A DNA stretch of 64,000 bases from Rhizobium jaguaris (GTDB lineage: Bacteria > Pseudomonadota > Alphaproteobacteria > Rhizobiales > Rhizobiaceae), in assembly GCF_003627755.1 (NCBI RefSeq), contig NZ_CP032694.1, positions 4,212,501-4,276,500 on the forward strand, written 5' to 3'. Positions 3,589 to 21,600 of this stretch are shown here, in pieces. Numbering within the stretch: the first letter of the stretch is position 1; each line of letters starts with the position of its first letter. Below the pieces are notes generated by a model. It did not search any database, had not been told where the DNA came from, and was given only the letters and a program-made list of their open reading frames with translations. Both the position numbers and the translations under genes were made by a program.

Positions 3589-4047
3589 GTGAGTGCAAAA
3601 GTACCAAATCCGATTGACGCCTATGTCGGCTCACGCGTGCGCATGCGCCGGCTCATGCTCGGTATGAGCCAGGAACGGCTTGCCGAACAGATCGGCGTCA
3701 CCTTTCAGCAGGTGCAAAAATACGAAAAAGGCACCAATCGCATCGGCGCCAGCCGATTGCAGGCGATCGCGGGAGTTTTGGCGGTTCCGGTCGCTTTCTT
3801 CTTCCAACAAGACAACACACAGCCACTGACGACGGAAGGTCTGGGCGCAATCAGCGGCCTTGAGGACCTGTCCGAATTTCTGACGTCCAAGGAAGGTCTC
3901 AGCCTCAACAAGGCCTTCATGAAGATCAACGACCCCAACGTTCGCCAATCCGTGCTGACGCTCATCAAATCGCTGGCCAACGCTTCCGAGCCGGCGGTCA
4001 CGCATGCGCCGCCTGCGGCCGAAGTTCCTTTCGGCCTCAGAAACTGA
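3589..4047 (+). CDS. XRE-family transcriptional regulator, PraR-like
   Basis: 152-residue DNA-binding protein. Residues 17-71 are an XRE/Cro helix-turn-helix (RMRRLMLGMSQERLAEQIGV...FQQVQKYEKGTNRIGASRLQ), followed by a 75-residue tail typical of the PraR/rhizobial XRE group, whose members repress quorum-sensing, biofilm or symbiosis-related genes. The start is the GTG at 3589, preceded by GAGGAG at 3575-3580. Targets are unknown here; it is followed by a hairpin and is probably monocistronic. Confidence 0.88.
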   Translation: MSAKVPNPIDAYVGSRVRMRRLMLGMSQERLAEQIGVTFQQVQKYEKGTNRIGASRLQAIAGVLAVPVAFFFQQDNTQPLTTEGLGAISGLEDLSEFLTSKEGLSLNKAFMKINDPNVRQSVLTLIKSLANASEPAVTHAPPAAEVPFGLRN

Positions 4048-4220: not shown

Positions 4221-4393
4221 TGCGGGTTGATTCACCTCAATGCGGGATGTTCTAGCGATTGCGATAGGATAGCAGTCATCGTAGTATAAAATTCTTGATC
4301 GCAAATAACAGCTGCGATCACCAATGACACAGGTCATCGCAAGCGACACCGGACATCGAGATACCGGCAAGCTGCTGGATGCAGTGGGGACGC

Positions 4394-6343
4394 ATGGATT
4401 TCAGGCTGCTGACATTCGGAGACCTGCGTCTCGTGGACGGAACAGGTACAACCGTGCCTTTTCCCGAAAAGGGCCTGCTATCGGTCTGCTTCCTGCTGAC
4501 GAGTTCCTCGACGCAAAAGCCCCGTGCCGAGCTTGCTGAATTTCTCTGGGGCGATATCCCCATGGACAAGGCGCTGGCCAATTTGCGGCAGACGCTGTCG
4601 CGCGTCAAAAGCCGGCAAGACGAACTCGGAATCGAGCTGCTACGGATCGAGCAGGCGGCTGTCGGCGTGAATGTCCAAGCCTTCACCAACGATCTCGCAT
4701 TCTTGAACGCAGTTTCGCAGACCGACCCTCACGCCGCGCTCAAGGAATTGCTGCAACTTGGCCGCTGGGATTTTCTTGCCCGTACCGAAGTCATCGGCGG
4801 CTTGGCTCGCATGTGGCTGCGCGCGCAGCGGGATCGTATCAAGGCACAGATGCTGGCGACGCTCCGCGATGCCATTGCGGCCATGAGCGAAGATGCGGAC
4901 GCGACCATCGTCAAAGAGGCGGCGCTGCGGCTGTTCGAAGCCCATCCAGAAGATGAGGCGATCTACCAGTTACTGGGTGAGACCTATGCTGGCGAACCCC
5001 AACTCGAAAGCGCCCGTCACATTTTCGAGAGCCGCAGAAAATATAGATGGGGCGAATTGCCGGTTGATCCCGACCCGCAGACGCTCAGCGTCGCGCGGCG
5101 GCTGTTCGAACGCCAGCGCAGCGTCCCGGCACAGCCTCGGGAAGAAGCGGCCCAGCAGGTGGAAATCGCTCCGCCCGTGCTCCGCGGGCCGCCCAAGCTC
5201 GTATTGCTGCCGCCGGTGAACCTAACGAGAAATCATGAGCCGGCTATCTTCCTCGCCGCGGCGCTCCTGGAAGATATCACCGTCGGCCTTTGCGTGTTGA
5301 AGACCGTGACGATGGTGGCGCACTATACGGCGGAAAAGATCGCCCTTCATCTTGATCGGGCGGCAATGCTGGAAAAATACGCCATCAATTACGTGCTGGA
5401 CACCAGGCTCAGCTTCGATGGCAGCGCCTATTGGCTTTTCGCGCAGTTGATTTACGCCGGCAATGATGAAGTCATCTGGGCGGAGCGCTTCGGCATGGAG
5501 GCGCGGGATCTGCCGCGTCAACATCGCGAAATTGCCCAGCGCATCGTCGCGTCGGCGGCCGGCCATATCGAGCGCAACGAATTCTCCCGCGACTATTTCG
5601 AGCGGAATCCGGAAGCCTATCGCCAATATCTGCTCGGCCAGCGCCACCTGAAGCATCTCGATCTTCCGGACATTCGCCGAGCCCGCAAGGCGTTCCAGAC
5701 CGCCCTGAAGGAAAACCCCTATTTCTCGCCCGCCCTAAGCGGCATGGCCCGCACCTATCATCTCGAATGGCTGGTTACCGCGCAGGGCGACACAAAGCTG
5801 TTGAAGCTGGCCGAGGAAGAGGCCGGCAAGGCGATCGCCACCGGCCAGGACATCGTGGGAGGCTATCATCAATTCGGTGTCGCAAAGCTTTACCAGGGGG
5901 CCTTCGACGAAAGTATCGAAACCTTCGAGCTCGCTGAGACCATCAGCCCGCACTATGCCGATGTCATCGCCGATTATGCAGACACGCTGATTCACGCTTC
6001 GAAACCGGCCGAAGCTCTGGAAAAGGTCGAGCGCGCTATCAAGCTCAACCCACTGAGCCCCGATCTATATTTCTGGACCGCCGCCGGGGCCAACTACTGC
6101 CTAGAGCGTTACGACGACGCCAATGCCTATATCGAGCGGATGGCCGACCCCACTCAGGCGGCACGCCTTGCCGCGGCCAGTGCAGCCATGGCCGGCGACA
6201 CACGAAAGGCCAAGACGCTGGCGCGCCGGGTCAAGGAAACCTATCCCGATTTTGAGATTGATACATGGCTCTCGATCGTTCCATTTCGTGAGCAATGGCA
6301 GAAGGACCTATATCGGGAAGGACTTAAACGGGCAGGATTTTAG
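4394..6343 (+). CDS. BTAD/SARP-type regulator with TolB/FlgO-like and TPR regions
   Basis: 649-residue cytosolic regulator. Residues 1-90 resemble an OmpR-like winged helix (FRLLTFGDLRL ... FLWGDIPMDKALANLRQTLSRVKSRQ), residues 95-230 a bacterial transcriptional activation (BTAD) helical domain, about 265-395 a FlgO/TolB-like alpha/beta segment (LVLLPPVNLTRNH), and about 400-630 tetratricopeptide repeats. The ATG at 4394 is preferred over the one at 4379 because GGGGA lies four bases before it. The gene ends 79 bases before the peptide precursor, on the same strand and with no terminator between, so it is likely the pathway-specific regulator of the YcaO/TfuA cluster. That role is inference from position. 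What it senses is unknown. Confidence 0.82.
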   Translation: MDFRLLTFGDLRLVDGTGTTVPFPEKGLLSVCFLLTSSSTQKPRAELAEFLWGDIPMDKALANLRQTLSRVKSRQDELGIELLRIEQAAVGVNVQAFTNDLAFLNAVSQTDPHAALKELLQLGRWDFLARTEVIGGLARMWLRAQRDRIKAQMLATLRDAIAAMSEDADATIVKEAALRLFEAHPEDEAIYQLLGETYAGEPQLESARHIFESRRKYRWGELPVDPDPQTLSVARRLFERQRSVPAQPREEAAQQVEIAPPVLRGPPKLVLLPPVNLTRNHEPAIFLAAALLEDITVGLCVLKTVTMVAHYTAEKIALHLDRAAMLEKYAINYVLDTRLSFDGSAYWLFAQLIYAGNDEVIWAERFGMEARDLPRQHREIAQRIVASAAGHIERNEFSRDYFERNPEAYRQYLLGQRHLKHLDLPDIRRARKAFQTALKENPYFSPALSGMARTYHLEWLVTAQGDTKLLKLAEEEAGKAIATGQDIVGGYHQFGVAKLYQGAFDESIETFELAETISPHYADVIADYADTLIHASKPAEALEKVERAIKLNPLSPDLYFWTAAGANYCLERYDDANAYIERMADPTQAARLAAASAAMAGDTRKAKTLARRVKETYPDFEIDTWLSIVPFREQWQKDLYREGLKRAGF

Positions 6344-6422: not shown

Positions 6423-6764
6423 ATGGGAAATTTCATAGTTTTCGGCATTCCTGGCGATACCCAACTTTACCTCGCCGATCTCGGCGCGGGAACCATATCT
6501 CCGCTCAATGTACCGACGGGCAGTGGCCTCGGTATGGCGGATCAACTGCGCAATTCTGGGGCAACGATCACCAAGGGCGTTAATCTTGCCGTTATGGTCG
6601 GCAGTACCGCCAGCGCCGGCGCAGGCAGAATGGATGAAGCTGCTGCGGGCATCAGGATGGATGAAGGCCCTGCAAGCGGCAGGATGGATGAAAGCCCCGC
6701 AGGCGGCAGGATGGATGAAGGCGCAGCAAGTGGCAGGATGGACGAGGATCCGACCAAACGATAA
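6423..6764 (+). CDS. Candidate RiPP precursor peptide with five RMDE repeats
   Basis: 113 residues; not a known family that I can name. Residues 1-68 would be the leader (MGNFIVFGIPGDTQLYLADL ... GSTASAGAG); residues 69-113 are five consecutive 9-residue units: RMDEAAAGI, RMDEGPASG, RMDESPAGG, RMDEGAASG, RMDEDPTKR, then stop. Arg-Met-Asp-Glu is invariant and positions 5-9 are small residues. Silent changes at third positions (AGA/AGG, GAT/GAC, GAA/GAG) support this frame among three open ones. Start chosen at 6423 because GGGGAAAG at 6406-6413 is a well spaced SD; upstream ATGs at 6363 and 6396 lack one. There is no cysteine anywhere. The YcaO gene begins 12 bases after the stop. Multi-core architecture next to YcaO-TfuA is the basis for the precursor call. 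Confidence 0.85.
   Translation: MGNFIVFGIPGDTQLYLADLGAGTISPLNVPTGSGLGMADQLRNSGATITKGVNLAVMVGSTASAGAGRMDEAAAGIRMDEGPASGRMDESPAGGRMDEGAASGRMDEDPTKR
6627..6761 (+). repeat. Five tandem 27-bp coding repeats (core units)
   Basis: Units begin at 6627, 6654, 6681, 6708 and 6735, each exactly 27 bases, with the stop codon directly after the fifth. The first 12 bases (AGGATGGATGAA with three silent variants) are the conserved part and the last 15 vary. The tract is open in several frames because the unit length is a multiple of three and few stops arise. Confidence 0.95.
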
Positions 6765-6775
6765 CTGACACCGCT

Positions 6776-8044
6776 GTGGTGACAATCGCACCATTGATAG
6801 CCGCATCCCTGTCGGAATTCCTGGAGGGAAATTCCCACAGGGAGCGGATTGCAGCCGCCTCATCGCCTTATTCGGACCGCGCCTGTTCCGCCGAGGAGAC
6901 CTTCCGGCGGATCGAGCCTTGCCTTGCCGCTCACGGCATCACTCGCCTCGGCCGCCTGACCGGGCTCGACAAAATCGGCATACCCGTCTGGCAGGCGGTC
7001 AGTCCGAATGCGCACTCGATCGTCATCAACAATGGCAAAGGCATCACCGATCTCGATGCCAAGGTCTCCGCAGCCATGGAAGCGCTGGAGCGGACCGTTG
7101 CCGGCGCGCCCGCCGTCAAAACCGTAACCACCAGTCGCCGGCAACTGATGGCTGAAGGACATGACGCCGATCCTCTGCCCTCACTGATTGCCAAAGGACA
7201 GGCGGATATTGCCGATGACGAGGACATTGCCTGGGCCGAGGGTTATGATCTCATCGCCGGCAGAAAAGCCTGGATTCCCTTCAATGCCGTGACGCTCGAC
7301 CGCACCATCCGCAATCCGCGCTTCTGGCAATCCTCCGATGGTCTTGCCTCTGGCAATGTACTGGCCGAGGCCATCCTGCACGGCCTGCTCGAACGCATCG
7401 AACGCGACGCGGAAGTCCTCTGGGATATTTCCGAGCCGAAGTTGCGCATGGGGGCCTGTATCGATCCCGCCTGTTTCGCCGATCCGGTGCTGGACGAACT
7501 CATCATGAAGATCACGGCTGCCGGCCTGACGCTGCGGCTCTTCGATATCACCAGCAACATAGGCATACCGGTGATCGTGGCTCTCCTCGGTCCCGGGAAA
7601 ATCGCACAAGCGCGGCGTATCCGCTACCTCGATGTCACTATCGGCAGCGGCGCGCATCCATCGCCGGTGCGGGCGGCTATCCGCGCCGTGACGGAAGCGG
7701 CGCAATCGCGCCTGACCTTCATCAGCGGCGCCCGCGACGACATCCGTCCGGAGAATTTCACGCGCGAACTGCCGGACAGCATCCGCCGCTGTTTCGATGC
7801 CATTCCCAAAACCGTCGTCGGATTGAATGCGATCCTGCCGGATGGCGCCGAGGCACTACTGCACTTTACTGTCGATCGATTGCGCCAGGCCGGCATCACT
7901 TCGGCCATCGCGCTTTCCCTCGGCCACGCCTCGCTTCCTTTTGCCGTCGCCAAACTCGCGGTGCCACAATTGGAAAATCCGGCCGGGGACCGCAAGCGCC
8001 GCTTCGGCTACCGCGCCATCTCGAAAACGTTGCAGCTGCTATGA
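6776..8044 (+). CDS. YcaO-family peptide-backbone modifying enzyme
   Basis: 422-residue YcaO protein. YcaO enzymes use ATP to activate a backbone amide of a peptide, forming azolines, amidines or, with TfuA, thioamides. ATP-site motifs are visible: SAAMEALER at 98-106, ERIERD at 206-211, and the GAHPSPVRAAIRAVTEAAQ block at 292-310 followed by SR and GARDD. The C-terminus (YRAISKTLQLL) lacks the PxPxP tail of azoline-forming YcaOs. The start is the GTG at 6776 (GTG at 6779 is possible); the SD is weak, suggesting coupling to the precursor 12 bases upstream. It overlaps tfuA by four bases (ATGA). No separate E1-like or ocin-ThiF partner is present. Confidence 0.93.
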   Translation: MVTIAPLIAASLSEFLEGNSHRERIAAASSPYSDRACSAEETFRRIEPCLAAHGITRLGRLTGLDKIGIPVWQAVSPNAHSIVINNGKGITDLDAKVSAAMEALERTVAGAPAVKTVTTSRRQLMAEGHDADPLPSLIAKGQADIADDEDIAWAEGYDLIAGRKAWIPFNAVTLDRTIRNPRFWQSSDGLASGNVLAEAILHGLLERIERDAEVLWDISEPKLRMGACIDPACFADPVLDELIMKITAAGLTLRLFDITSNIGIPVIVALLGPGKIAQARRIRYLDVTIGSGAHPSPVRAAIRAVTEAAQSRLTFISGARDDIRPENFTRELPDSIRRCFDAIPKTVVGLNAILPDGAEALLHFTVDRLRQAGITSAIALSLGHASLPFAVAKLAVPQLENPAGDRKRRFGYRAISKTLQLL

Positions 8045-8766
8045 AGATCCTGTTCGTTGGCCCCACGCTTCCCGACGCCGCCGAGATCGCCGATCCCGGT
8101 ATTACCCTGCGCCCACCGGCGCAGAAGGGCGATATCGTCGAAGCCCTCGAAAATGGCGCGAACGTCATTGGCCTGATCGACGGACTTTTCGAAAATGTCG
8201 CGCCCGTCTGGCACAAGGAAATCCTCTTTGCCCTGTCGAAAGGGGTCCATGTCTATGGCGCGGCCAGCATGGGAGCGCTACGCGCCGCCGAATGCGCCGC
8301 TTTCGGCATGGTCGGCATCGGGCGCGTTTTTGAGGCCTATGCTTCCGGTACGGTTGTAGACGATTCCGCCGTCGCGCAGATTCATGGCCCGGCTGAACTC
8401 GGACACCTTCCGCTCAGCGAGCCGCTGGTCAACGTGCAGGCGACCTTGCGCGCTCTGGCCGAGACCGGCGCAATCAGTGAAGCCGAGCAAGCTGTCCTGC
8501 GGGCACGTGCAGAAGCTATGTTCTTCAAATCACTGACCTATCGCGCTCTGGCGAACACTGCGGATCTGCCGGATCCGGCGCGACGACAGGAAATTTCCGC
8601 TCTCCTGCGGGCCAATGCGGTCAATCAGAAACGCATTGACGCCCTGGAATTGCTTCACGCCGTTGCCGACTGCCCGAACGAGCGGCAGCAACCGCCGCGC
8701 GATTGGACCTTCAAAGCCAATAGTTTATGGCATTTCGCCTTCCACCGCCTTGAAATTGCATCGTAA
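8041..8766 (+). CDS. tfuA: TfuA-like protein, partner of YcaO
   Basis: 241 residues. The N-terminal half is a TfuA-like domain (KILFVGPTLP at 2-11; IGLIDGLFENVAPVWHKEI at 43-61; VYGAASMGALRAAE at about 72-85). TfuA was named from the trifolitoxin locus of Rhizobium; in thioviridamide-type clusters and methanogens TfuA proteins work with YcaO to install backbone thioamides, probably by delivering sulfur. It starts inside the last codons of the YcaO gene, a strong sign of a functional pair. Whether this pair makes a thioamide is inference. Confidence 0.93.
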   Translation: MKILFVGPTLPDAAEIADPGITLRPPAQKGDIVEALENGANVIGLIDGLFENVAPVWHKEILFALSKGVHVYGAASMGALRAAECAAFGMVGIGRVFEAYASGTVVDDSAVAQIHGPAELGHLPLSEPLVNVQATLRALAETGAISEAEQAVLRARAEAMFFKSLTYRALANTADLPDPARRQEISALLRANAVNQKRIDALELLHAVADCPNERQQPPRDWTFKANSLWHFAFHRLEIAS

Positions 8767-8898: not shown

Positions 8899-9141
8899 AT
8901 GACCGCAATTCTTCCTATCGAAATAGCAAGCCAGGATTCAGAGTCGTTGAAAGAACTGGCGTCGATTGCACGATTGATTACCTATGCGCGCCAGAGCGCA
9001 AAGAGTTTGAACGCCGATTTCCCGGTCTGGTGCCTGGATCTCGCACTCGGCGCCGTGTTGCAGGAAATGTACGCAAACGGCCTGCAGATGCCGCTTTTCG
9101 AAGAGGGCGCAGACAAAGTGAATAGGGCTGTCGCACACTAA
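8899..9141 (+). CDS. Small hypothetical protein downstream of tfuA
   Basis: 80 residues, not recognised. No signal peptide; predicted mainly helical (SESLKELASIARLITYARQS, LDLALGAVLQEM). The AAAGGGG SD at 8886-8892 supports the ATG at 8899. It begins 132 bases after tfuA on the same strand with no obvious terminator between, so it could be read in the same transcript, but membership in the peptide cluster is unproven. Confidence 0.6.
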   Translation: MTAILPIEIASQDSESLKELASIARLITYARQSAKSLNADFPVWCLDLALGAVLQEMYANGLQMPLFEEGADKVNRAVAH

Positions 9142-9241: not shown

Positions 9242-9925
9242 CTACCGAACCCTCTCACGCACCTGCACGCCCGCCACAAAGATTGCGATGCATTGACGCA
9301 GGTGTCTCAGGCGGGTTTCGCGATCGGGCCAGTCGTTCGGCTTGCCGGGATGCGAAATCATCGCGCCAAAGATCATGTTCATCAGCATGCGTGCGCCGCT
9401 TGATGCATCGGCAATTTCGATCAGACCGCGTTTCTGCTGGAGGCTGAGCCAATCGGCCAGCAATTGCCTGGACTGCTCGGCGCCGTAGGTTCGCAACAGC
9501 GTTGCAATCTCCGGAAATCGCTGCGCTTCACTCATGATGAGATGAATGAAAGCCTCGCGGTCACGTTCCGCCGCTTCACCGATATTGATCATGAAAATCT
9601 GCTCCAGCGCCTCGTCGAGCGGCAGATTTTCTTTGGGATCGCGCGGCAGGGCCAGCATCGAGGCGCGATGCTTGGCGATAATCGCCATGAAAAGTTCCGT
9701 CTTGCTCGAAAACAAGCGATAGAGAGTTTGCTTGGAAATCCTGCACCGTGCCGCTACGAGATCCATGGTCGTACCGCCGTAGCCGAGCTCATGAAATGTC
9801 GCGCGAGCCTCGATGATGATCTCCACCCGCCTTGCATCGTCACTCACCGATTTTGGGCGGCCGCGCGGGCGGCGAGCGACAATTTCTTCTGCGTCCCTTC
9901 TCCTCCCCTCCGTCTGCACTTCCAT
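9242..9925 (-). CDS. TetR/AcrR-family repressor of the adjacent RND pump
   Basis: 227 residues. Residues about 30-75 are the TetR helix-turn-helix (IIIEARATFHELGYGGTTMD, ISKQTLYRLFSSKTELF), followed by an all-helical ligand domain of TetR_C type. The ATG at 9925 is chosen over 9958 because GAGGTGAGG directly precedes it and the earlier ATG has no SD. It is divergent from the RND operon starting at 10009, with a palindromic operator between, the usual arrangement of AcrR-type repressors that respond to pump substrates. Confidence 0.9.
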   Translation of the reverse strand: MEVQTEGRRRDAEEIVARRPRGRPKSVSDDARRVEIIIEARATFHELGYGGTTMDLVAARCRISKQTLYRLFSSKTELFMAIIAKHRASMLALPRDPKENLPLDEALEQIFMINIGEAAERDREAFIHLIMSEAQRFPEIATLLRTYGAEQSRQLLADWLSLQQKRGLIEIADASSGARMLMNMIFGAMISHPGKPNDWPDRETRLRHLRQCIAIFVAGVQVRERVR

Positions 9926-9951
9926 CCTCACCTCAAAAAAGCCAAATGAGA

Positions 9952-9985
9952 TTGACATTTACAACGGTACAAATATTTCTTGTAC
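9952..9985 (+). promoter_or_regulatory. Promoter and TetR operator for the AcrAB-type operon
   Basis: TTGACA at 9952-9957 and TATTTC at 9974-9979 form a plausible -35/-10 with a 16-base spacer. GTACAA-N7-TTGTAC at 9967-9985 is a perfect inverted repeat covering the -10, and GTAC recurs at 9992-9995. The TetR protein bound here would block the pump promoter. Confidence 0.65.
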
Positions 9986-10008
9986 TACTTGGTACTGTAA
10001 TTAAGACA

Positions 10009-11325
10009 ATGGGAAATAGCAACGTGGCAAAGCGAGCCCCCTCCACCCCTGTAATCGTGCGTCCGGCGGCATTCAAACGCCTCCCAGCCGCACGCATGTC
10101 GTTGGTCGCAGCAGGGGTCGCCGCGACGTTGCTGCTAGCAAGCTGCAACGAGCAGAAGGCCGCTCAAAACAATGCGCCTGCCGTCAAGACCGAAGTCAGC
10201 GCCATGACGTTGCACCCGCAATCGGTTGCGATCACGGCAGAGCTGCCCGGCCGCACCAGCGCCTATCTTGTCGCCGAAGTCAGGCCACAGGTCGGCGGCA
10301 TCATCCGCAGCCGCAATTTCAAGGAAGGCAGCGAAGTCAAAGCCGGCGACGTGCTCTACGAAATCGACCCCGCCACCTATCAGGCCGCCTATGACAGCGC
10401 CGCCGCCGCTCTGCAGAAGGCAGAAGGCGCTATACCGAGCGCGCAGGCCAAGATGGACCGTTACAAGGGCCTGAGCGCCCAGAACGCTGTCAGCCAGCAG
10501 GATTACGACAGTGCGCAGGCAACCCTCGTCCAGGCGCAGGCCGACGTCGCCTCCGCCAAGGCCGCGCTCGAAACTGCGCGCATCAATCTCGACTACACCA
10601 AGATGCGCGCTCCGATCGGCGGCCGCGTCGACGCCTCGGCGGTAACCGTCGGCGCTCTCGTCACCGCCGACCAGACGACGGCGCTGACCACCATCCGCCA
10701 GCTCGATCCGATCAATGTCGACGTCACGCAGTCGAGCACCAATCTGCTTGAGTTCCGTCGCGCCATTGCGCAAGGCCGTTTGAAGACCACCGGCGACAAT
10801 GTCTCCGTCCACCTGACGCTGGAAGACGGTTCCGACTACAAGCAGACTGGCAAACTCCAATTTTCGGAGGCCTCTGTCGCCGAGACCGTCGGAACGATCA
10901 CTGTGCGCGCCGTCTTCCCCAATCCGGAACGCGTGTTGCTGCCCGGCATGTATGTTCGGGCCAGCATTGAGGAAGCCGTCGCGGAAAACAGCTTCCTCGT
11001 GCCGCAGCGAGCGGTTACCCGCAATACGAAGGGCGAACCGGTCGCAATGTTCGTCAGCGACGACAACAAGGTTCAGCAGCGGGTGCTGAAGGTGCAGAGA
11101 AGCATCGGCAATAGTTGGCTGGTCAACGAAGGTATGAAGGATGGCGACCGGATAATCGTCGAAGGCGGCCAGCGCGTCCGTGCCGGCCAGGATGTCAATG
11201 TCGCTGCCGTGACCATCGACGATGCGACCGGCGAGCTGAAGCAAGCGGCCGCCGATATCAAGCCCGCCGAACAGGTCGAGCTGGAAAAGACCGATGGCAA
11301 AGCCGCCTCCGGCGCCCAGAAGTAA
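10009..11325 (+). CDS. RND efflux periplasmic adaptor (AcrA/MexA type)
   Basis: 438-residue membrane fusion protein that links an RND pump to an outer-membrane channel. An N-terminal membrane segment ends in the lipobox LLAS-C, so it is probably a lipoprotein. Then come the lipoyl/barrel-sandwich half motif (VRPQVGGIIRSRNFKEGSEV), an alpha-helical hairpin (about 145-210), the second lipoyl half (YTKMRAPIGGRV) and a beta-barrel domain. The frame is open further upstream, but the ATG at 10009 follows the promoter/operator and is used. It is 9 bases from the permease gene, in one operon. No outer-membrane factor gene is next to it. Confidence 0.92.
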   Translation: MGNSNVAKRAPSTPVIVRPAAFKRLPAARMSLVAAGVAATLLLASCNEQKAAQNNAPAVKTEVSAMTLHPQSVAITAELPGRTSAYLVAEVRPQVGGIIRSRNFKEGSEVKAGDVLYEIDPATYQAAYDSAAAALQKAEGAIPSAQAKMDRYKGLSAQNAVSQQDYDSAQATLVQAQADVASAKAALETARINLDYTKMRAPIGGRVDASAVTVGALVTADQTTALTTIRQLDPINVDVTQSSTNLLEFRRAIAQGRLKTTGDNVSVHLTLEDGSDYKQTGKLQFSEASVAETVGTITVRAVFPNPERVLLPGMYVRASIEEAVAENSFLVPQRAVTRNTKGEPVAMFVSDDNKVQQRVLKVQRSIGNSWLVNEGMKDGDRIIVEGGQRVRAGQDVNVAAVTIDDATGELKQAAADIKPAEQVELEKTDGKAASGAQK

Positions 11326-11334
11326 GGTGGTTTG

Positions 11335-14300
11335 ATGTCTCGTTTCTTCATTGACCGGCCGATCTTCGCCTGGGTCATCGCCATTATTATCATGCTGGCG
11401 GGCGCGCTGTCGATCTTCACGCTGTCGATATCGCAATATCCGCAGATCGCGCCGACGACAGTGCGCATCAGCGCAACCTATTCAGGCGCCGATGCCCAGA
11501 CGGTCGAAAACTCAGTGACAAAGGTCATCGAGCAGGGCATGACCGGCATCGACAATCTCGATTACATGGCCTCCACGTCGACGTCGACGGGCCAAGCCTC
11601 GATCTCGCTGACCTTCACCAACAAGGCCAATGCGGACGTGGCCCAGATGCAGGTGCAGAACAAGCTGCAGCTCGTCACCGCGCAATTGCCGCAGTCGGTC
11701 CAGAATACCGGTATCACGGTGTCGAAATCGACCTCGAACTTCCTGATGGTCATCGGCTTCGTCTCGACCGACGGCAAGCTCAATTCCAACGACCTTGCCG
11801 ACTACGTCAACAGCACCCTGAACGACACGCTGAAGCGCGTCCCGGGTGTCGGTGACACGCAGCTCTTTGGCGCCGGTTACGCCATGCGCATCTGGATCGA
11901 TCCTGACAAGCTTGCGAAATACCAGTTGATGACATCAGATGTCGTCTCGGCAATCCAGGCACAGAACACGCAGGTTTCGACCGGCCAGCTCGGTGCATTG
12001 CCACAAATGCCGGGCCAGCAGCTCAATGCGACGGTGACGGCCAAAAGCCGTCTGCAGACGCCCGAACAATTCAACAACATCATCCTGAAGAGCCAGTCCA
12101 ACGGTTCGCTGGTACGCCTCAACGACGTAGCTCGCGTCGAACTGGGCGCCGACAGCTATACCAGCTCGAGTGCCTTCAACAATCAGCCGTCGGCCGGTCT
12201 CGCGGTGATGCTTGCCTCCGGAGCCAACGCCATCAACACGGCCGAGGCGGTGCAGTCGACGATCAACGGCCTGAAGCAGACGCTGCCGCCGAATGTGGAA
12301 GTCGTTTATCCCTATGACACGACGCCCTTCGTCAAGCTGTCGATCGAGGACGTGGTCAAGACGCTGTTCGAAGCCATCGTGCTCGTCTTCATCGTCATGT
12401 TCGTCTTCCTGCAGAACATCCGCGCCACCTTGATTCCGACACTTGCCGTTCCGATCGTTCTGCTCGGCACGTTCGGCGTGCTCTCGGCCTTCGGCTACTC
12501 CATCAATACGCTCACTATGTTCGGCATGGTGCTGGCGATCGGCCTATTGGTGGACGACGCGATCGTTGTGGTCGAAAACGTCGAGCGCGTGATGGAGGAG
12601 GAGGGTCTGTCGCCGCGCGAGGCAACGATCAAGTCGATGCAGGAAATCACCGGCGCCTTGATCGGCATCGCCACGGTTCTGTCGGCGGTGTTCATCCCGA
12701 TGGCCTTCTTCTCCGGCTCGGTCGGCGTCATCTACCGTCAGTTCTCGGTGACGATCGTCTCGGCCATGATCCTGTCGGTCATTGTCGCACTCATCCTGAC
12801 CCCCGCGCTTTGCGCCACCATTCTCAAGAGACCCGAGCACGGCGCCAAGGAGCGGGGCGTCTTTGGCTTGTTCAACCGGAACTTCGATCGCGGCGTCCGT
12901 GGATATCAGCGCAGCGTGCGCGGCATCATCAAGGGAGCGCCCTTCTTCCTTGTCCTGTTTGTGCTGATCGCCGGCGCCGTTGGTTACCTGTTCAACCATC
13001 TTTCCAGCTCGTTCCTGCCGGACGAAGACCAGGGCATCCTCATCACCAGCGTGCAACTGCCGCCCGGTGCAACGGACTACCGCACCAAAGACGTGCTGAC
13101 GCAGGTCAGAAAGTACTATCTCGAAAAGGAAAAGCCCTATGTCGACGCTGTCTTCACCGTCGCCGGATTCGGCTTTAACGGACAGGGACAAAACGTCGGC
13201 CTTGCCTTTATCAAGCTGAAGGATTTCGCTGAGCGTCAGACAAAGGAAAGCAAGGCGCAGGCGATCGCCGGACGTGCCATGGGGGCCTTTTCGAAGATCA
13301 AGGATGGCAGCGTCTTCGCACTCGCGCCGCCGGCGATCCCGGGCTTTGGCAGCTCCTCAGGCTTCGACTTCTTCATCAAGGACATCAACAGCGCGGGGCA
13401 TGATCAGCTCATTGCCGCCCGCAACCAATTGTTGGGCGCCGCCGGGAAAAACCCCAAACTGTTCGGCACGCGCCCGAACGGCCAGGAAGATACACCGCAA
13501 TATTCGGTTGTGATCGACCAGGAAAAGGCAAGCGCCCTCAACATCAGCCTTTCCAATATCGACTCGACACTGTCGACGGCCTGGGGTGGCACCTATGTCA
13601 ACGACTTCATCGACCGAGGTCGCGTCAAGAAAGTCTACGTACAGGCCGACGCCAGGTTCCGTATGCAGCCGGAGGATTTCGACCGCTGGTACGTGCGCAA
13701 CTCCGATGGCGCCATGGTGCCCTTCTCGGCTTTTGCCACCGGCAAATGGACCTATGGTTCGCCACGCCTGGAACGCTATAACGGCTCGTCGGCCGTCGAA
13801 ATTCAGGGTGCTGCCGCCCCAGGCGTTTCGTCCGGCGACGCCATGAACCAGATCGACCAGATCATGGCGAGCCTGCCACCGGGCTTCAGCCATGAATGGA
13901 CGAGCCTCTCGGCCCAGGAAAAACTCTCCGGAAACCAGGCGAGCCAGCTTTACGCGATCTCCATCCTGGTCGTATTCCTGGCGCTGGCCGCCCTTTACGA
14001 GAGCTGGTCGATCCCGCTCGCCGTCATGCTGTCGGTTCCGATCGGCATCTTCGGGGCGCTGCTGGCGGCCACCCTCTTCGGACAGTCGAACGACGTCTAC
14101 TTTAAGGTCGGCCTGCTCACCACGATCGGTCTGGCCGCCAAGAACGCCATCCTGATCGTCGAATTCGCCATCGAGCAGCAGAACAACGGCAAGGACCTGA
14201 TCCCTGCGACGCTGGAAGCAGCCCGCCAGCGCCTGCGGCCGATTCTGATGACATCGCTCGCCTTCATCCTCGGCGTCATGCCGCTGGCTATCGCGAACGG

Positions 14301-14481
14301 TGCTGGCTCCGGCAGCCAGAATTCGATCGGCATCGGCGTCATGGGCGGCATGATCTCGGCGACCGTGCTCGGCATCTTCTTCATCCCGCTGCTCTTCGTC
14401 TCCGTCCGCCGCATCTTCAAGGGCGGAAAGCGACCGACAAGCACCACGGCATCGGAGCCAGCTCCAGACACGGCGCACTAA
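11335..14481 (+). CDS. RND multidrug efflux permease, HAE1 family (AcrB type)
   Basis: 1048-residue inner-membrane proton/drug antiporter, twelve membrane segments with two large periplasmic loops. The N-terminus [20 protein letters not shown] is diagnostic. TM4 has the proton-relay Asp pair in [15 protein letters not shown], and TM10 has the Lys in [14 protein letters not shown]. Start is the ATG at 11335 with AAGGTGG just upstream. Length matches AcrB. It pairs with the adaptor at 10009-11325 and is presumably controlled by the divergent TetR protein. Confidence 0.95.
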
Positions 14482-14518
14482 GAAGCATCACCTGTATGGT
14501 TTAAGGGAGGAGAATGCT

Positions 14519-15541
14519 GTGATCAGAGCTTTGATGATCGAGGCGGAAAACGTCACGCGCTTCCACGACATCGCGGAAGCGCCGCTCGCCGCCGGCCAGG
14601 TCCGCATCGGCGTCCGGCACATTGGCCTCTGCGGCAGCGATCTCAACACCTTCAAGGGCCTCAACCCGCTGGTGAAGCTGCCACGCGTCCCCGGCCATGA
14701 AATCGGCGGCGAGATCATTGCCGTCGGCCCCAGTGTCGATCCCGCCTATGCGCCCGGCCGCCGCGTCATCGTGATGCCCTATACCAATTGCGGCGAGTGC
14801 ACCTCCTGCCGCAAGGGCCGGCTCAACGCCTGCCGCTACAACAAGACGCTTGGTGTGCAACAGGATGGCGGATTAGCCGAGGAGATCGTACTGCCGGCCG
14901 AAAAGCTGATCCTCAACGATACGTTGCCGCCACGCCATCTGGCTCTGGTCGAGCCGCTGTCGGTCGGCTTTCACGCCGTCGAGCGCGGCCGGGTGGCGAA
15001 AGGCGATCGCGTCGTCGTGCTTGGCTGCGGCATGATCGGCATGGGTGTCTTGATCGCTGCCGTCGCCCGTGGTGCGGAGGTCATCGCCGTCGATCTCAGC
15101 GAGGAAAAACGCGCGCTCGCCCGGCAGTTCGGCGCGGTCGAGACGATCGATGCGGGCAGCGAAGATACTGTCGCCAAGGTAAGCCAATTGACCGGCGATG
15201 ATGGTGTCGATATCGCTTTCGAGGCCGTCGGTCTGCCTGCGACCTTTACGCAAGCCATCGATCTCGCCTGCTTTGGCGGCCGCGTCGTCTATGTCGGCTA
15301 TTCCAAGGCGCCGGTCACCTACCAGACGCAGTTCTTCAATCTGAAGGAACTCGACATCATGGGCTCCCGCAACGCCCTGATGCGCGATTTTCAAAACGTC
15401 ATCAGCCATCTCGAGGAAATCGGCGACAAGGCCGACGCGCTGATCTCGAAGGTTTTCCCCTTTGAAGAGGCCGAAAATGCGCTGCCCTACTGGGACAGCC
15501 ACCGGAATGCGCTGAAGATCGTGATTGAGCGCGGCGCCTAG
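14519..15541 (+). CDS. Zinc-dependent medium-chain alcohol dehydrogenase
   Basis: 340-residue MDR-family oxidoreductase, likely NAD(P)-dependent on a sugar alcohol, sugar acid or similar. Catalytic-zinc ligands sit in GLCGSDLNTF (Cys39), PGHEIGGE (His/Glu), structural zinc in CGECTSCRKGRLNAC (four Cys), and the Rossmann glycine motif is VVVLGCGMIGMGVL. This places it with L-idonate/galactitol/threonine-type dehydrogenases. The start is a GTG at 14519 with AGGGAGGAG upstream. It follows the RND permease by 37 bases and converges with the next pump; functional connection to the pump is unclear. Confidence 0.88.
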   Translation: MIRALMIEAENVTRFHDIAEAPLAAGQVRIGVRHIGLCGSDLNTFKGLNPLVKLPRVPGHEIGGEIIAVGPSVDPAYAPGRRVIVMPYTNCGECTSCRKGRLNACRYNKTLGVQQDGGLAEEIVLPAEKLILNDTLPPRHLALVEPLSVGFHAVERGRVAKGDRVVVLGCGMIGMGVLIAAVARGAEVIAVDLSEEKRALARQFGAVETIDAGSEDTVAKVSQLTGDDGVDIAFEAVGLPATFTQAIDLACFGGRVVYVGYSKAPVTYQTQFFNLKELDIMGSRNALMRDFQNVISHLEEIGDKADALISKVFPFEEAENALPYWDSHRNALKIVIERGA

Positions 15542-15568
15542 CGTTACGACATTTGTGTAGCGAGCCGC

Positions 15569-18500
15569 TCAAGTCGGCAGCGAAGATACCGGCGGCGTTG
15601 GCTGTTGCTTCGTCGACCATCTGCTGTGCAGCTTGGCCAGCATCAGGTAGATGATCGGCGTCGTGTAGAGCGTCAGCACCTGTGAGACGATAAGCCCGCC
15701 GACGATGGTAATGCCGAGGGGGCGGCGGAGTTCTGCGCCGGGGCCGGTGGCGATGATCAGCGGAATGGCGCCCATCAAGGCGGCGAGCGTGGTCATCAGG
15801 ATCGGGCGGAAACGCTTCAGACAGGCTTCATAGATCGCCTCTTCCGATGGCAATCCAAGCATGCGTTCGCCCTGCAGCGCGAAATCCACCATCATGATGC
15901 CGTTCTTCTTGACGATGCCGATCAACAGGATGATGCCGATAAAGGCGATGATCGTCAGCTCCGTGCCGCTGATGACCAACGCCAGCAGCGCGCCGAGACC
16001 AGCTGATGGCAGCGTCGAAATGATCGTCAGCGGATGCGCCAGGCTCTCATATAGAATACCGAGGACGATATAGACCGTCAGCAGTGCCGCGAGAAGCAAC
16101 AGCGGCTGGCTGCTCGCGGATTGGGTCACGTTGGCTGCATCGCCGGCAAAATCCGCATGCAGCGTATCCGGCAGATGCATTTCGAGCACCGCCTTCTGAA
16201 TGGCATCATTTGCTGCTTCCAGCACGGTGTTGAGCGCCAGATTGTAGGAGATGGTCACCGACGGATATTGCCCCTGATGGTTGACCACCAGCGGCGCCAG
16301 CGTCCGATCGACCGACGCCACGGCACTCAGCGGAATCTGGATACCGCCCGATGCCGGCACGTAGAGCTTGGAGATATCGTTGGGATCGCGGGCGTAGCTG
16401 GGATCGGCCTCCAGCACGACGCGATATTGATTGCGCTGCGTATAGATGGTCGACACCTGCCGCTGCGCAAAGGCGTTGTTGAGCGCCGCGTCGATCGACT
16501 GGATGCTGACGCCGAGCCGCGAGGCTTCGCTGCGGTTGATATTGACCGTCGCTTGCAGGCCGTTGGGTTGCCGATCCGTGGCGACATCAGTCAGTTCCGG
16601 CAGGGTCTGCAGACGTTGGAGCACTTTCGGCGCCCATTCCACCAGCTCATCATAATTCGCGCCCCAAAGCGTGAACTGATATTGCGACTGAGACTGGCGC
16701 GCCCCGGCGCGGATATCGCCCGGCGAAAACAGGAAGGTGCTGAGCCCGGGCACGGCCGTCAGTTGCTTGCGCAACCGGTCTATCACCTCGTTGGTCGATA
16801 CGCGCTCCGATGCGGGCTTCAGGGAAATGAACAATTGCCCGCGATTGATCGAACTCGAAAAGCCGCCGCCACCCACGGACGACCCGACACCGGAGACAGC
16901 CGGATCCTTGGCAACCATATCGGCCGCCTGCTGCTGCAGCTTGACCATAGCTGGATAGGAAATATCGGTTGCCGCCTCCGTGCCGCCCTGGATGTAGCCG
17001 GTATCATCCTGCGGAATGAAACCCTTCGGGACCTTGACATAGAGATAGCCGGACAGAACGACGCAGGCGAAGACGACGAGGACGGAGAGCACACGATGAT
17101 GCAACACCGCTTTCAGCGTCCGGCCGTAGAAATTGGTGACCGCACTGAGCGTCCCTTCGATGATCCGGCCGAATAGGCCCGGCCGCGCGTCCTTGTCGTA
17201 CGACCGCAGCCGATGGCCGCAGATCATCGGGGTCAGCGTCAGCGACACCAGAGTCGAGACGACGATGGTGAAGCCGAGCGTCAGCGAGAAGGTCTGAAAG
17301 AACCGTCCGACGATGCCGCCCATGAAGAACAGGGGAATGAAAGCCGCGAGCAGCGACAGGCTGATCGAAACAACGGTGAAACCGATCTGCTTCGCGCCCT
17401 CGAGCGCCGCCTTCATCGGCTTCATGCCGGTTTCGAGATTCGCGTAGATGTTCTCGATCATCACGATAGCGTCGTCGACGACAAAGCCGACGGAGACCGC
17501 AAGCGCCATCAGCGACAGATTGTCGATCGACAGCCCGAAGAGCCACATGGCGGCAAAGGTGCCGCAGAGCGACAATGGCACGGTGACACCGGCCGCAAAG
17601 GTCGTCGTGGCGCGCCGGAGGAAGATGAAGACAACGGCCATGACCAGGCAAATCGTGGCGAGCAGCGTCCATTGCATGTCGGTGACGCTGGCATGGATCG
17701 TCGTGGTGCGGTCCGAGAGAACCGCGATGTGGACGCCGGACGGGATCAGGCGCTGCAGTTCCGGGATCAACGCCTTCACGCCATCGACAGTGGCGATGAC
17801 ATTGGCGTCCGCTGCTCTGGTGATGTTGAGTAGCACCGACGGCTTGCCGTCATACCAGGCATCCGAGCGGCTGTTGCGGACGCCAGGCTCAACGGTGGCG
17901 ATATCGGAAAGGCGTACAGCCGTGCCATCGCCGCTGCGCACGACAATCCGCCCATAAGCCTCAGGCGTCCGCAGCTGACTATTCAGGGAAATGGAAAAGG
18001 CGGCGCTGTTGCCGTCGATCGAGCCGATCGGGCCGAGCACATTGGCATTCACGATCGCCGTACGGATGTTGTCCAGCGACAGACCCATTGCGGAAAGACG
18101 GTCGGGATCGAGCCGGACACGCACGGCTGGCTGGTCGGCGCCGCTAACCGTGACACCGCCGACGCCATCCACTTGGGAGATGCGCTGCACCACCACCGTA
18201 TCGGCAGCGTCATAGATGGCGCTCGGCGACACATTGTCCGATGTCAGCGCTAGGATCAGGACCGGCGCGGCCGCCGGGTTGATCTTGCGGAAGGAGGGCA
18301 ATGTCGGTAGGTCGCCGGGCAGATCGGTTGCGGCAGCGTTCAGCGCTGCCTGCACGTCCTCCGCTGCGCCGTCCACGCTGCGCGACAGATCGAATTGCGC
18401 GACGATGCTGCTCGATCCGAGCGAGCTGACCGAGGTCAACTGCGTGATGCCGGCGATGGTGCCGAGATGTCGCTCGAGGGGTGCTGCGACGCTCGCCGCC

Positions 18501-18676
18501 ATGCTGGCAGGGTCCGCGCCCGGGCGACTGGCGGATACGACGATCGTCGGCAGATCGACGGTCGGCAGGCTGGCGACCGGCAGGAAGCGGTAAGCGACGA
18601 TGCCGAGGATCATCAACCCGATCGCCAGAAGCGTCGTTCCAACAGGACGTTTGATGAACGGCTCGGAGAGGCTCAT
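15569..18676 (-). CDS. RND efflux permease 2 of an MdtABC-type pump (MdtC-like)
   Basis: 1035-residue HAE1-family inner-membrane permease. N-terminus LSEPFIKRPVGTTLLAIGLM, TM4 motif VGFVVDDAIVMIENIYANLE with the Asp pair, and the C-terminal half LLIGIVKKNGIMMVDFALQ all match MdtC-like proteins, which form a hetero-trimer with MdtB. Its start overlaps the stop of the gene at 18673-21792 by four bases (ATGA), so the two permeases are translationally coupled. In the TM10 segment it has VKKNGIMM where AcrB has AAKNAILI; this is usual in the MdtB/C branch. Confidence 0.93.
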   Translation of the reverse strand: MSLSEPFIKRPVGTTLLAIGLMILGIVAYRFLPVASLPTVDLPTIVVSASRPGADPASMAASVAAPLERHLGTIAGITQLTSVSSLGSSSIVAQFDLSRSVDGAAEDVQAALNAAATDLPGDLPTLPSFRKINPAAAPVLILALTSDNVSPSAIYDAADTVVVQRISQVDGVGGVTVSGADQPAVRVRLDPDRLSAMGLSLDNIRTAIVNANVLGPIGSIDGNSAAFSISLNSQLRTPEAYGRIVVRSGDGTAVRLSDIATVEPGVRNSRSDAWYDGKPSVLLNITRAADANVIATVDGVKALIPELQRLIPSGVHIAVLSDRTTTIHASVTDMQWTLLATICLVMAVVFIFLRRATTTFAAGVTVPLSLCGTFAAMWLFGLSIDNLSLMALAVSVGFVVDDAIVMIENIYANLETGMKPMKAALEGAKQIGFTVVSISLSLLAAFIPLFFMGGIVGRFFQTFSLTLGFTIVVSTLVSLTLTPMICGHRLRSYDKDARPGLFGRIIEGTLSAVTNFYGRTLKAVLHHRVLSVLVVFACVVLSGYLYVKVPKGFIPQDDTGYIQGGTEAATDISYPAMVKLQQQAADMVAKDPAVSGVGSSVGGGGFSSSINRGQLFISLKPASERVSTNEVIDRLRKQLTAVPGLSTFLFSPGDIRAGARQSQSQYQFTLWGANYDELVEWAPKVLQRLQTLPELTDVATDRQPNGLQATVNINRSEASRLGVSIQSIDAALNNAFAQRQVSTIYTQRNQYRVVLEADPSYARDPNDISKLYVPASGGIQIPLSAVASVDRTLAPLVVNHQGQYPSVTISYNLALNTVLEAANDAIQKAVLEMHLPDTLHADFAGDAANVTQSASSQPLLLLAALLTVYIVLGILYESLAHPLTIISTLPSAGLGALLALVISGTELTIIAFIGIILLIGIVKKNGIMMVDFALQGERMLGLPSEEAIYEACLKRFRPILMTTLAALMGAIPLIIATGPGAELRRPLGITIVGGLIVSQVLTLYTTPIIYLMLAKLHSRWSTKQQPTPPVSSLPT

Positions 18677-21600
18677 GTCCCGCCACCTACAACTTCATCC
18701 AGTTCCGGAGCCGGTACGCCGGTCGGCCGTCCGACGACGCGGGCGCGCAGGCTTTCGAAGGCAAGATAGATCACCGGGGTCGTATAGAGCGTCAGAAGCT
18801 GCGACAGCACAAGGCCGCCGATGATGGTGATGCCGAGCGGAATGCGCAGCTCCGCGCCGGTACCATGCGCCAACGCCAGCGGCAGCGCACCGAAGAGCGC
18901 GGCAAGGGTCGTCATCATGATCGGACGGAAGCGGAGGATCGACGCTTTCAGGATCGCCTCCCGTGGCGCCAACCCTTCCTTGCGTTCGGCCTCCAGCGCG
19001 AAGTCGATCATCATGATCGCATTCTTCTTGACGATGCCCATCAGCAGCACGATGCCGATGAGGGCGATGATCGACAGATCCTGGCCGAACAGCATCAGCG
19101 CCAGCAGCGCGCCGACGCCCGCCGACGGCAAGGTCGAGAGGATCGTCACAGGATGCACGGCGCTTTCATAAAGCAGACCGAGGACGATATAGATCGTCAC
19201 GACAGCCGCCAGGATCAGCCAGGGCTCACCCGCAAGCGAAGAGGCGAACTCCTGAGCATCGCCGGAATAATTGCGCCGAATCGAACTCGGCATGCCGATA
19301 TCGCGTTCGGCCGTCTGGATCTCGGTGACGGCTTCGCTGAGCGACGCGCCCTTGGCAAGATCGAAACTGAGGGTCACGGCCGGGAACTGTTCGTCGTGGC
19401 TGATGACCAACGGCGCCGTCGTGAACGAAGCGGTCGTAAAGGCATTAAGCGGCACCTGCGTGTCGCCGGCGCCTGCGACGTAGAGCTTGTCGAGCGATTT
19501 CGGGTCCGACTGATATTGCGGCGCAGCCTCGAGGATGACGCGATACTGATTGGCCTGGCCGTAAATGGTGGCGATCTGGCGCTGGCCGAAAGCATCGTTC
19601 AGCGTGTCGCTGACGGCCTGCATCGAGACGCCGAGGCGCGAGGCAGTTTCGCGATCGACTTGGACGAAGATGCGGCCGCCGCCCATTTCGACCTCCGAAG
19701 CGACATCGATCAGCTTCGGGCTCTGCTGCAGCCGCTGCACCAGCTTCTCCGCCCAGTCCACCACCGTCGCCGTATCCGTGCCGGTCAGCGTGTATTGATA
19801 GGGCGCACGGCTGGCGCGCGTGCTGATCGAGATGCCGCGCACGCTCTGGAAGGTGACGTGGATGCCGGGCAGATCGGCCACTTCACCACGCATGCGGTCG
19901 ATGATTTCGATCGCCGAAGCCGCGCGCTCGCTCCTCGGCTTCAATATGAGGCTGAGATTGCCGGTGTTGAGCGTCAGGTTGCTGGCGCTTGCACCGATGA
20001 CCGAGACGATACCTGTTACATCAGGATCTTTGCGCAGTCGGTCGGCCACGGTCTCCTGCGTCTGCTTCATCGCTTCGAAGGAGGTGGTGGGCTCCGTCTC
20101 GACGACGGCGGTGATCAGGCCGGTATCCTGCGCCGGCAAGAAGCCTTTGGGAATGACGATGTAAAGAGCGATCGTGGCGGCAAGCGTCACCACCGTGACC
20201 AGCAGCATGAACGCGCTACGGTCCACCGCCCAGACGAGACTACGGCGATAGCCCTCGATCAGCCGGCCCATGACGCGGTCGGTGCCCGCCAGCAAACCGC
20301 CCCGATGCTCCTTCGGCTTGCGCAGGATGCGGGCGCTCATCATCGGCGTCAATGTCAGCGAGATCGCCGCGGACACCACAACCGCGATGGTCAGCGTCAA
20401 CGCGAACTCGCGGAACATGCGCCCGACGATGCCGGTCATGAACAGCAGCGGGATGAAGACGGCGATCAGCGAGAAAGTCAGCGAGATGATGGTGAACCCG
20501 ATTTCGCCGGCACCTTTCAGAGCCGCCTGCATAGGGTTCTCGCCCTCCTCGATATGGCGGGCGATGTTCTCGATCATCACAATGGCGTCGTCGACGACGA
20601 AGCCGGTGCCGATGGTGAGCGCCATGAGCGACAGATTGTCGAGGCTGAAACCGGCGAACCACATGACGCCGAAGGTCGCGATCAGCGACAGCGGCAGCGC
20701 CACGCCGGCGATGAAAGTCGCCGTCACGGTGCGCAGGAACAGCAAAACGACGAGGATGACCAGCCCGATGCTGACGACGAGCGTCCATTGCACGTCATGG
20801 ATCGAAGCGCGGATCGTCTCGGTGCGGTCGTTGACAATGTCGAGCGAGATACCGGCCGGCAGCGCTTGCTTCAGCCGCGGGATCTGCTTCAGCACGCTCT
20901 CGACCGTTTGGATGACGTTGGCTCCCGGCTGGCGCATGATGTCGAGAATGACGGCTGGCTGGCCCTGGTACCAGGCGCCGACACGGTTGTTTTCCAGCCC
21001 TTCGACGACGGTGGCGACGTCCTTCAACTGCACCGGCGCATTGTTGCGGTAGGCGACGATGACAGATTTGTAGATGTTCGGATCGATGATCTGGTCGTTG
21101 GCAGCAAGCGTGAAGCTTTGCTGCGTGCCGTCGAGCGCGCCCTTGGCACCGGCAACACTGGCATTGGTGATCGCCGTGCGCAGATCCTCCAGCGCCAGAC
21201 CATAGGAGGCAAGCCGCGGCAGGTCGGCCTGGATGCGAATGGCGGGTTTGACGCCGCCCTGGATGTTGACATTGCCGACCCCTGAGACTTCGCTGAGCCG
21301 CTGCGCCATCATCGTATCGGCGAAATCGCTGAGTTCACGGATCGAATAGCTGTTGGAGCGCAGAGCCAGCGTGACGATCGGCGTATCGGCCGGGTTCACC
21401 TTCGAATAGGTCGGTGGATAGGGCAGCGTGCGCGGCAGCGTCGAGCCGGCGGCATTGATCGCCGCCTGTACGTCCTGAGCCGCCCCGTCTATATCGCGGC
21501 CAAGATCGAACTGCAGGGTAATCTGGCTGATGCCGAAGGCGCTGGATGAGGTCATCGACGCCAATGACGGAATCTGGCCGAGCGGCCGCTCCAGCGGCGC

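Follow-up and report, generated by a model that had tools for sequence, protein, structure and literature searches.

What is made from the short repeat-bearing gene that precedes a YcaO-TfuA enzyme pair in Rhizobium jaguaris? The gene lies in a 64,000-nucleotide stretch of contig NZ_CP032694.1 (assembly GCF_003627755.1, positions 4,212,501 to 4,276,500; hereafter the window, in whose numbering its features are given) and encodes a peptide of 113 residues, here called PEP. We consider it likely that PEP represents a family of precursors of ribosomally synthesized and post-translationally modified peptides (RiPPs), of which the cores are modified by YcaO-TfuA, probably through thioamidation, giving many copies of one regulator-coupled peptide.

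The open reading frame (ORF) of PEP (6423-6764, + strand) is composed of a conserved leader-like N-terminal region (6423-6611), predicted as beta-beta-beta-alpha, and five 9-residue core units (6612-6746), namely SAGAG, AAAGI, GPASG, SPAGG and GAASG, each followed by RMDE. The five repeats had been claimed in a first-pass annotation of this DNA and were confirmed. RMDE starts at residues 69, 78, 87, 96 and 105 with a period of 9 residues or 27 nt, and Tandem Repeats Finder scored 125 for period 27 and 159 for period 54. When residues 61-113 were shuffled, some 4-mer occurred at least three times in only 24 of 100,000 trials. The RMDE codons of the five copies differ by synonymous changes only (AGA/AGG, GAT/GAC, GAA/GAG), and the linker residues vary. 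A repeat arising by chance was ruled out by the shuffling, Tandem Repeats Finder and the codon constraint, and a repeat limited to one strain was ruled out by the relatives found in homologue and genome searches. The N-terminus is coding and under purifying selection: compared with ten relatives, its 72 codons showed a ratio of nonsynonymous to synonymous differences (pN/pS) of 0.16-0.43, and 158, 100 and 351 substitutions fell at codon positions 1, 2 and 3, the third being the fastest.

The YcaO gene (6776-8044, + strand, 422 aa; PF02624, E 2.2e-64) directly follows PEP as annotated before, with a gap of 11 bases to its GTG start where 12 had been given, and it overlaps tfuA (8041-8766, + strand, 241 aa; PF07812, E 8.8e-43) by 4 nt, also as annotated. 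The TfuA domain and the ATP-site motifs of YcaO held up as well, the motifs being SAAMEALER at 98, HGLLERIERD at 202 and TEAAQSR at 306. TfuA-associated YcaO proteins prefer Met in motif 1, His in motif 2 and Ala in motif 3 (PMC8120280), and matching by eye to these residues gave the TfuA type in all three motifs of the window YcaO. Among 65 YcaO relatives, motif 1 with Met was found in 63 and motif 2 with His in all. The nearest solved sequences were 6pe3 (MJ1094, E 1.7e-36) for YcaO and 6xp8, a TfuA-domain protein (E 2.3e-30), for TfuA, both of which we take to be from methanogens. A TfuA-related RiPP cluster is recognized by adjacent ycaO and tfuA genes, here with both families well above cut-off, and by a small neighbouring precursor in which the leader is conserved and the core varies, a description that PEP fits.

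A first homologue search with PEP yielded 17 proteins and a later one 181 (E <= 0.001). Named homologues, among the matches listed, came from Rhizobium, Neorhizobium, Pararhizobium, Pseudorhizobium, Ensifer, Shinella, Hoeflea and Phyllobacterium, and no Pfam domain was found in the 120 of 181 homologues listed. A protein of Hartmannibacter diazotrophicus (P0127) was also among the homologue-search proteins. The final search, in which just the 7989 candidates sharing most words were scored, gave 14 proteins, two with names. Of 148 Rhizobium genomes, 138 carried PEP, which was also present in 49 of 297 genomes of the family sample (five of the 49 from Rhizobium) and in 21 of 297 genomes of the order sample, 16 of these from six other families; the genus and family samples overlap, with five PEP-positive genomes common to both. 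In the class sample (289 genomes) it was found in none except the window's own genome. The weakest distant matches reached E values up to 9.8e-4, yet the same gene order was kept.

The window's own genome (G000) had three PEP matches in the genus survey, two of them among the matches listed. A second PEP of this genome, with a single core and ending in SGHLDG, is located at G000:C1:1816219-1816434 (L114, 10220-10435); its upstream regulator is 47% identical to that of the window, and no YcaO or TfuA match was found in the 16-kb stretch. Among the plasmid records listed, PEP was unlisted as a gene in 13 of 25, the PLSDB gene table being incomplete, and 5 more of the records carry no annotation.

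Profiles of the window proteins served to search 82 stretches, drawn non-randomly from the PEP searches (best genus matches, family matches and a mixed choice); L047 and L108 contained no PEP, and L070 contained two, the second behind the first. The most constant neighbour of PEP was a regulator that is absent from the first-pass annotation. This SARP-like protein, here called REG (4379-6343, + strand, 654 aa), combines a BTAD domain (PF03704, 22.4 bits, barely exceeding the cut-off of 22.1) with tetratricopeptide repeats (TPR; TPR_19, 2.3e-9). It was located on the same strand, within the 600 bases that defined upstream, in 81/81 PEP genes, some of which are near-identical copies in related genomes. 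YcaO was found downstream, that is within 900 bases, in 65/81 and TfuA in 60/81. A regulator of the Cro/C1-type helix-turn-helix (HTH) class was upstream on the same strand in 64/81, and HTH, REG, YcaO and TfuA were all so placed around 58 of the 81. At the 16 loci of other families, REG-PEP-YcaO was complete in 16/16 and TfuA came next in 15/16, the remaining one being a contig end. A named example is R. leguminosarum BIHB 1148 pSK03 (CHY08_RS31335 to RS31310); at the PEP locus of S. meliloti Ak57 pSymB, YcaO was matched and TfuA was not found within the stretch. Relatives of residues 1-68 thus lie beside YcaO/TfuA at most surveyed loci and cores are repeated in several lineages, as expected if the first-pass annotation was right in pairing this peptide with the enzymes; neither a consistently different precursor nor an unconserved peptide was seen, though some YcaO-TfuA pairs occur without PEP.

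The conserved block is therefore wider than the trio annotated before, and its six genes, HTH-REG-PEP-YcaO-TfuA-ORF80, are all on the + strand in the window. The HTH gene (3589-4047, + strand, 152 aa; PF01381, E 8.9e-14) opens it and ORF80 (8899-9141, + strand, 80 aa) usually closes it. ORF80 matched no Pfam or NCBIfam family; its profile had matches in 55/82 loci, and it is a single copy in the window's own genome (one match).

The association extends beyond adjacency, since TfuA was found in every PEP-positive genome: 138/138 against 4/10 PEP-negative genomes in Rhizobium (Fisher p 1.6e-8), and 49/49 against 37/248 in the family sample (Fisher p 8e-33), p values that are overstated because the genomes are related. 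The TfuA search is blind to subfamilies, and the TfuA of a PEP-positive genome need not be the partner of PEP. YcaO was matched (E <= 1e-20) in 28/28 genomes, comprising G000 and 27 chosen, like one later locus set, for a seemingly unlinked PEP among the matches listed; one of those chosen, G143, also has a linked copy (L149). Twelve loci carry HTH-YcaO-TfuA-ORF80 without PEP, which is elsewhere in the same genomes, and a REG remnant is left in three of the twelve (L116, L139, L145). TfuA is divergent beside REG-PEP in G045, G105, G106 and G132, with HTH-YcaO-ORF80 elsewhere and lacking TfuA, and YcaO, TfuA and PEP stand at three separate places in G063, G064 and G145. Broken ycaO fragments were observed divergent from a REG-PEP pair in L110 (7267-7631), at the same place in L129.

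RMDE, which had been taken as the core, proved to be one lineage's version among RLDE, QFDE, RFDE, KFDD, GGFFE, SHHYFP and others. A rough pattern count over 85 PEPs gave one core in 55, none in 6, two in 4, three in 15, four in 2, five in 2 and six in 1. Repeated cores, as in the multi-core precursor proposed before, hence occur in the window clade and several other lineages, and most relatives are single-core. Single cores are mostly C-terminal with the form (A/V)SG-x-hydrophobic-D/E-x (SGHVDG, SGHLDG, SGVFDG, SGFMDG), with exceptions such as SGQFVG, SGHYIT and SSFHES. The window clade carries the core 2-7 times, mostly in 9-residue units (RMD, RLD, QFD, RFD, KFD, RSD), with seven in P0003. 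Other multi-core lineages have FSGKLEx four times (L059), GGYMDx three times (L065, L076) and GLHEx three times (L078). Outside the family, pattern counts that cover 10 of the 16 loci gave GGFFE 4, GGFLE 4, GLFE/GLCE 7, SGRL 2, SGQFD 2, RSDxAxHxxYG 6, DAAxHHYFP 8, AASHYYYPS 5, ESLSxxSxxxWxEP 4 and AxHILYG 8.

When the single or multi-core state was mapped on a tree of 64 YcaO proteins, at least six changes, in either direction, were required. This tree was built quickly and includes weak forks as well as long branches; L090, perhaps with two cores, was scored as single. Core triplets were read by eye, the P proteins being checked by script and five loci (L003, L059, L065, L076, L078) by eye only. 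Within one gene they are identical in 149/158 copy pairs, the other nine differing by D/E, and between genes, related ones included, they are identical in 975/6283 pairs. The copies within a gene look homogenised in sequence, which would point to dose of one product, not diversity.

In the mechanism that we propose, PEP would be a ribosomal RiPP precursor with the conserved N-terminus as leader and the C-terminal repeats as cores. The adjacent YcaO would activate one backbone amide per core with ATP, and TfuA, judging from the enzyme families, would deliver sulfide to form a thioamide. With five repeats, each precursor would yield the same modified peptide five times over, and cell peptidases may free the copies as short modified peptides. 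REG might control the product or be controlled by it.

Several observations weigh against this RiPP reading. PEP is conserved and near-universal in the genus, and typical antimicrobial RiPPs are not. In the block, where only window proteins were traced and others could be missed, we saw no conserved gene for a protease, an exporter or immunity; a dedicated protease or exporter is not always part of such clusters. YcaO is not adjacent to PEP in 16/81 loci, and YcaO-TfuA pairs without PEP in the stretch were found in L047, L127, L128, L133 and L137; L133 and L137 have a similar ORF of about 180 aa, unrelated to PEP, directly upstream of the pair. The third YcaO motif pattern occurred in only 50/65 relatives. 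The McrA-glycine thioamidation equivalogs TIGR03266 and NF033432 were below cut-off (213.2 vs 365 and 175.3 vs 235.2 bits), scores that show relation and not identity. Certainty on the thioamide chemistry is also reduced by the published TfuA clades: the experimentally known TfuA proteins belong to clade 1, and most proteobacterial groups to clade 2, which consists mostly of proteobacterial and actinobacterial sequences and for which validation was called for (PMC8120280).

As for the function, a physiological or signalling role would be likelier than an antibiotic one, because PEP is near-universal and conserved. Peptide quorum sensing of the RRNPP-like type is characterized by a TPR receptor encoded next to its peptide, and a TPR regulator is adjacent to PEP in all 81 cases. 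We might speculate that most Rhizobium genomes encode a signalling system in which a thioamidated, protease-resistant core is the ligand of REG and the core copy number tunes the dose, a tentative idea that we regard as possible but rather doubtful.

A different fate of PEP would be to remain uncut, as a small structured protein of which the C-terminus is modified by YcaO-TfuA, like uL16 and McrA; this seems unlikely to us. The AlphaFold2 model of PEP, built from 85 sequences, is of low overall quality (predicted local distance difference test, pLDDT, 67; predicted template modelling score, pTM, 0.43), with residues 1-50 predicted folded (block pLDDT 78-88; strands E4-8, E15-19 and E24-28, helix H35-44), and the uL16 of E. 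coli is already folded when YcaO thioamidates it (PMC13063428). That no conserved protease or exporter was seen in the block fits an uncut protein as well. However, the repeat region reached a block pLDDT of only 46-62 and the core repeats are probably disordered given this low confidence. Such tandem, homogenised, low-confidence cores resemble those of VarA, which are freed (PMC6511847), and it is hard to see what tandem core copies would do in a protein that stays uncut.

The modelled N-terminus can also be compared with PqqD-like RiPP recognition elements (RREs), which have beta-beta-beta and three helices, while the low-quality PEP model has three strands and one helix. RRE chains made up 4 of the 10 best Foldseek rows, with E of 0.6-1.1, the eight VIA-align rows included zero RREs, and in hhalign the leader scored against RRE barely above shuffled sequences. 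The resemblance of the predicted leader to PqqD-like elements is thus only a lead. Homology of PEP to ThiG was rejected, as it came from a Pfam match below cut-off (E 0.051) and the source name of P0006, and nothing else backs it.

If the RiPP reading holds, the modified peptide might still be a narrow antibacterial agent for competition, with a TetR regulator and an RND-like pump for export and immunity, which we judge quite unlikely. In favour of this reading, the block of the window's clade borders on genes that by eye look TetR-like and RND-like. The R. leguminosarum regulator carries the annotation 'peptide antibiotic resistance protein', and rhizobia are known to make azoline antibiotics such as phazolicin and trifolitoxin (PMC9670871). 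Against this, TetR was matched in 17/82 and RND genes in 13-14/82 stretches only, some stretches being short, and with so few matches the pump seems local to the clade; in addition, cores that occur singly are conserved across species in a peptide found nearly throughout the genus.

The chemistry could differ too, with YcaO installing azolines or another backbone change instead of thioamides on the cores, which we hold to be improbable. YcaO enzymes are also known to make azolines and amidines (PMC7136475), and the proteobacterial TfuA clade awaits validation (PMC8120280). Cys is absent from PEP, as are Cys, Ser and Thr from repeat unit 2 (AAAGIRMDE), a composition that disfavours azoline chemistry and favours a backbone change, and the nearest solved sequences to the two enzymes are, as said, MJ1094 and a TfuA-domain protein, presumably of methanogens. 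Very improbable, finally, is a PEP that serves as co-regulator of REG while YcaO-TfuA act elsewhere and just share the operon: REG-PEP is the steadiest pair (81/81), occurs without adjacent YcaO in 16/81, and some YcaO-TfuA pairs lack PEP, but TfuA accompanies PEP in every PEP-positive genome of both samples, YcaO was present in all 28 genomes checked, and the distant precursors of L144 and L173 precede YcaO-TfuA without REG.

By analogy, thiovarsolin appears as the closest worked example for the PEP block. VarA-VarY-VarT of Streptomyces varsoviensis likewise combine imperfect core repeats with a YcaO-TfuA pair, and the precursors of that family range from non-repeating to five repeats (PMC6511847). 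Thiovarsolin B can be made with varA, varY and varT alone, the cluster has no specific protease in the account covered, and endogenous peptidases are thought to release thioamidated tripeptides (PMC6511847). Unlike the PEP block, the thiovarsolin cluster is actinobacterial and also holds varO, varL, varP and varS, and a BTAD/TPR regulator is unmentioned in the sections of PMC6511847 covered; the APR/GPR core of thiovarsolin is absent from the window PEP.

The YcaO-TfuA pair for McrA-glycine thioamidation in methanogens represents the nearest solved or curated relatives of both window enzymes; unlike PEP, its substrate is a large enzyme, and its equivalog cut-offs are not reached by the window proteins. 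Trifolitoxin, from the tfx genes and the original tfuA of R. anhuiense T24, is also a rhizobial YcaO peptide, and, as an azoline antibiotic, is unlike the thioamide proposed for PEP. In that system tfuA was implicated in production (PMC4603692) and was sequenced as a separate small region (PMC9670871).

More than 500 TfuA clusters were counted in Rhizobium by antiSMASH, with 797 precursor clusters (PMC8120280), and the literature covered does not describe what most rhizobial YcaO-TfuA pairs act on. These 'TfuA-related' clusters probably include the PEP type. In the main text of PMC8120280 the words 'repeat', 'btad' and 'tetratricopeptide' have 0 occurrences each, and the PEP family is perhaps among its unnamed networks. 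No description of the precursor family was found in Creative Commons-licensed literature. Accordingly, the novelty claimed in the first-pass annotation applies, within that literature, to the precursor family and its link to a regulator, and not to the Rhizobium TfuA clusters, which were already counted in 2021 (PMC8120280). Since the family has a clear core and occurs in 138 of 148 Rhizobium genomes, the question of rhizobial YcaO-TfuA substrates becomes directly testable.

Because the set is found in most genomes of the genus and in other families, nearly always beside the same regulator type, our results suggest an overlooked modified-peptide system, possibly a signal. If true, a rhizobial YcaO-TfuA peptide would be tied to one regulator type, and three traits would, in our view, set it apart from most RiPPs: it occurs nearly throughout a genus, its multiple cores evolve in homogenised form, and its precursor, YcaO and TfuA genes are separable yet co-retained. 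If the signal idea is also true, a RiPP-plus-TPR regulatory circuit would exist in Gram-negative bacteria.

Some further arrangements were observed near these genes. After the main survey, a distant precursor of a second type, whose repeated cores resemble AFSGHxx[RK]TP, was located just before another YcaO-TfuA pair in L144 (4032-6338) and L173 (3395-5708), with no REG match at either; in L173 it comes after a PEP-YcaO set whose tfuA matches in pieces only. On pSymB of S. meliloti 1021 (L172, 4459-5705), HTH and TfuA are adjacent, and neither YcaO nor PEP was matched within the 10.7-kb stretch. In the window itself, the region 9242-21792 adjoining the block contains a TetR-like gene and RND-like efflux genes, all named by eye, and these are followed by two large minus-strand ORFs of 1035 and 1039 aa, the first of them RND-like by eye.

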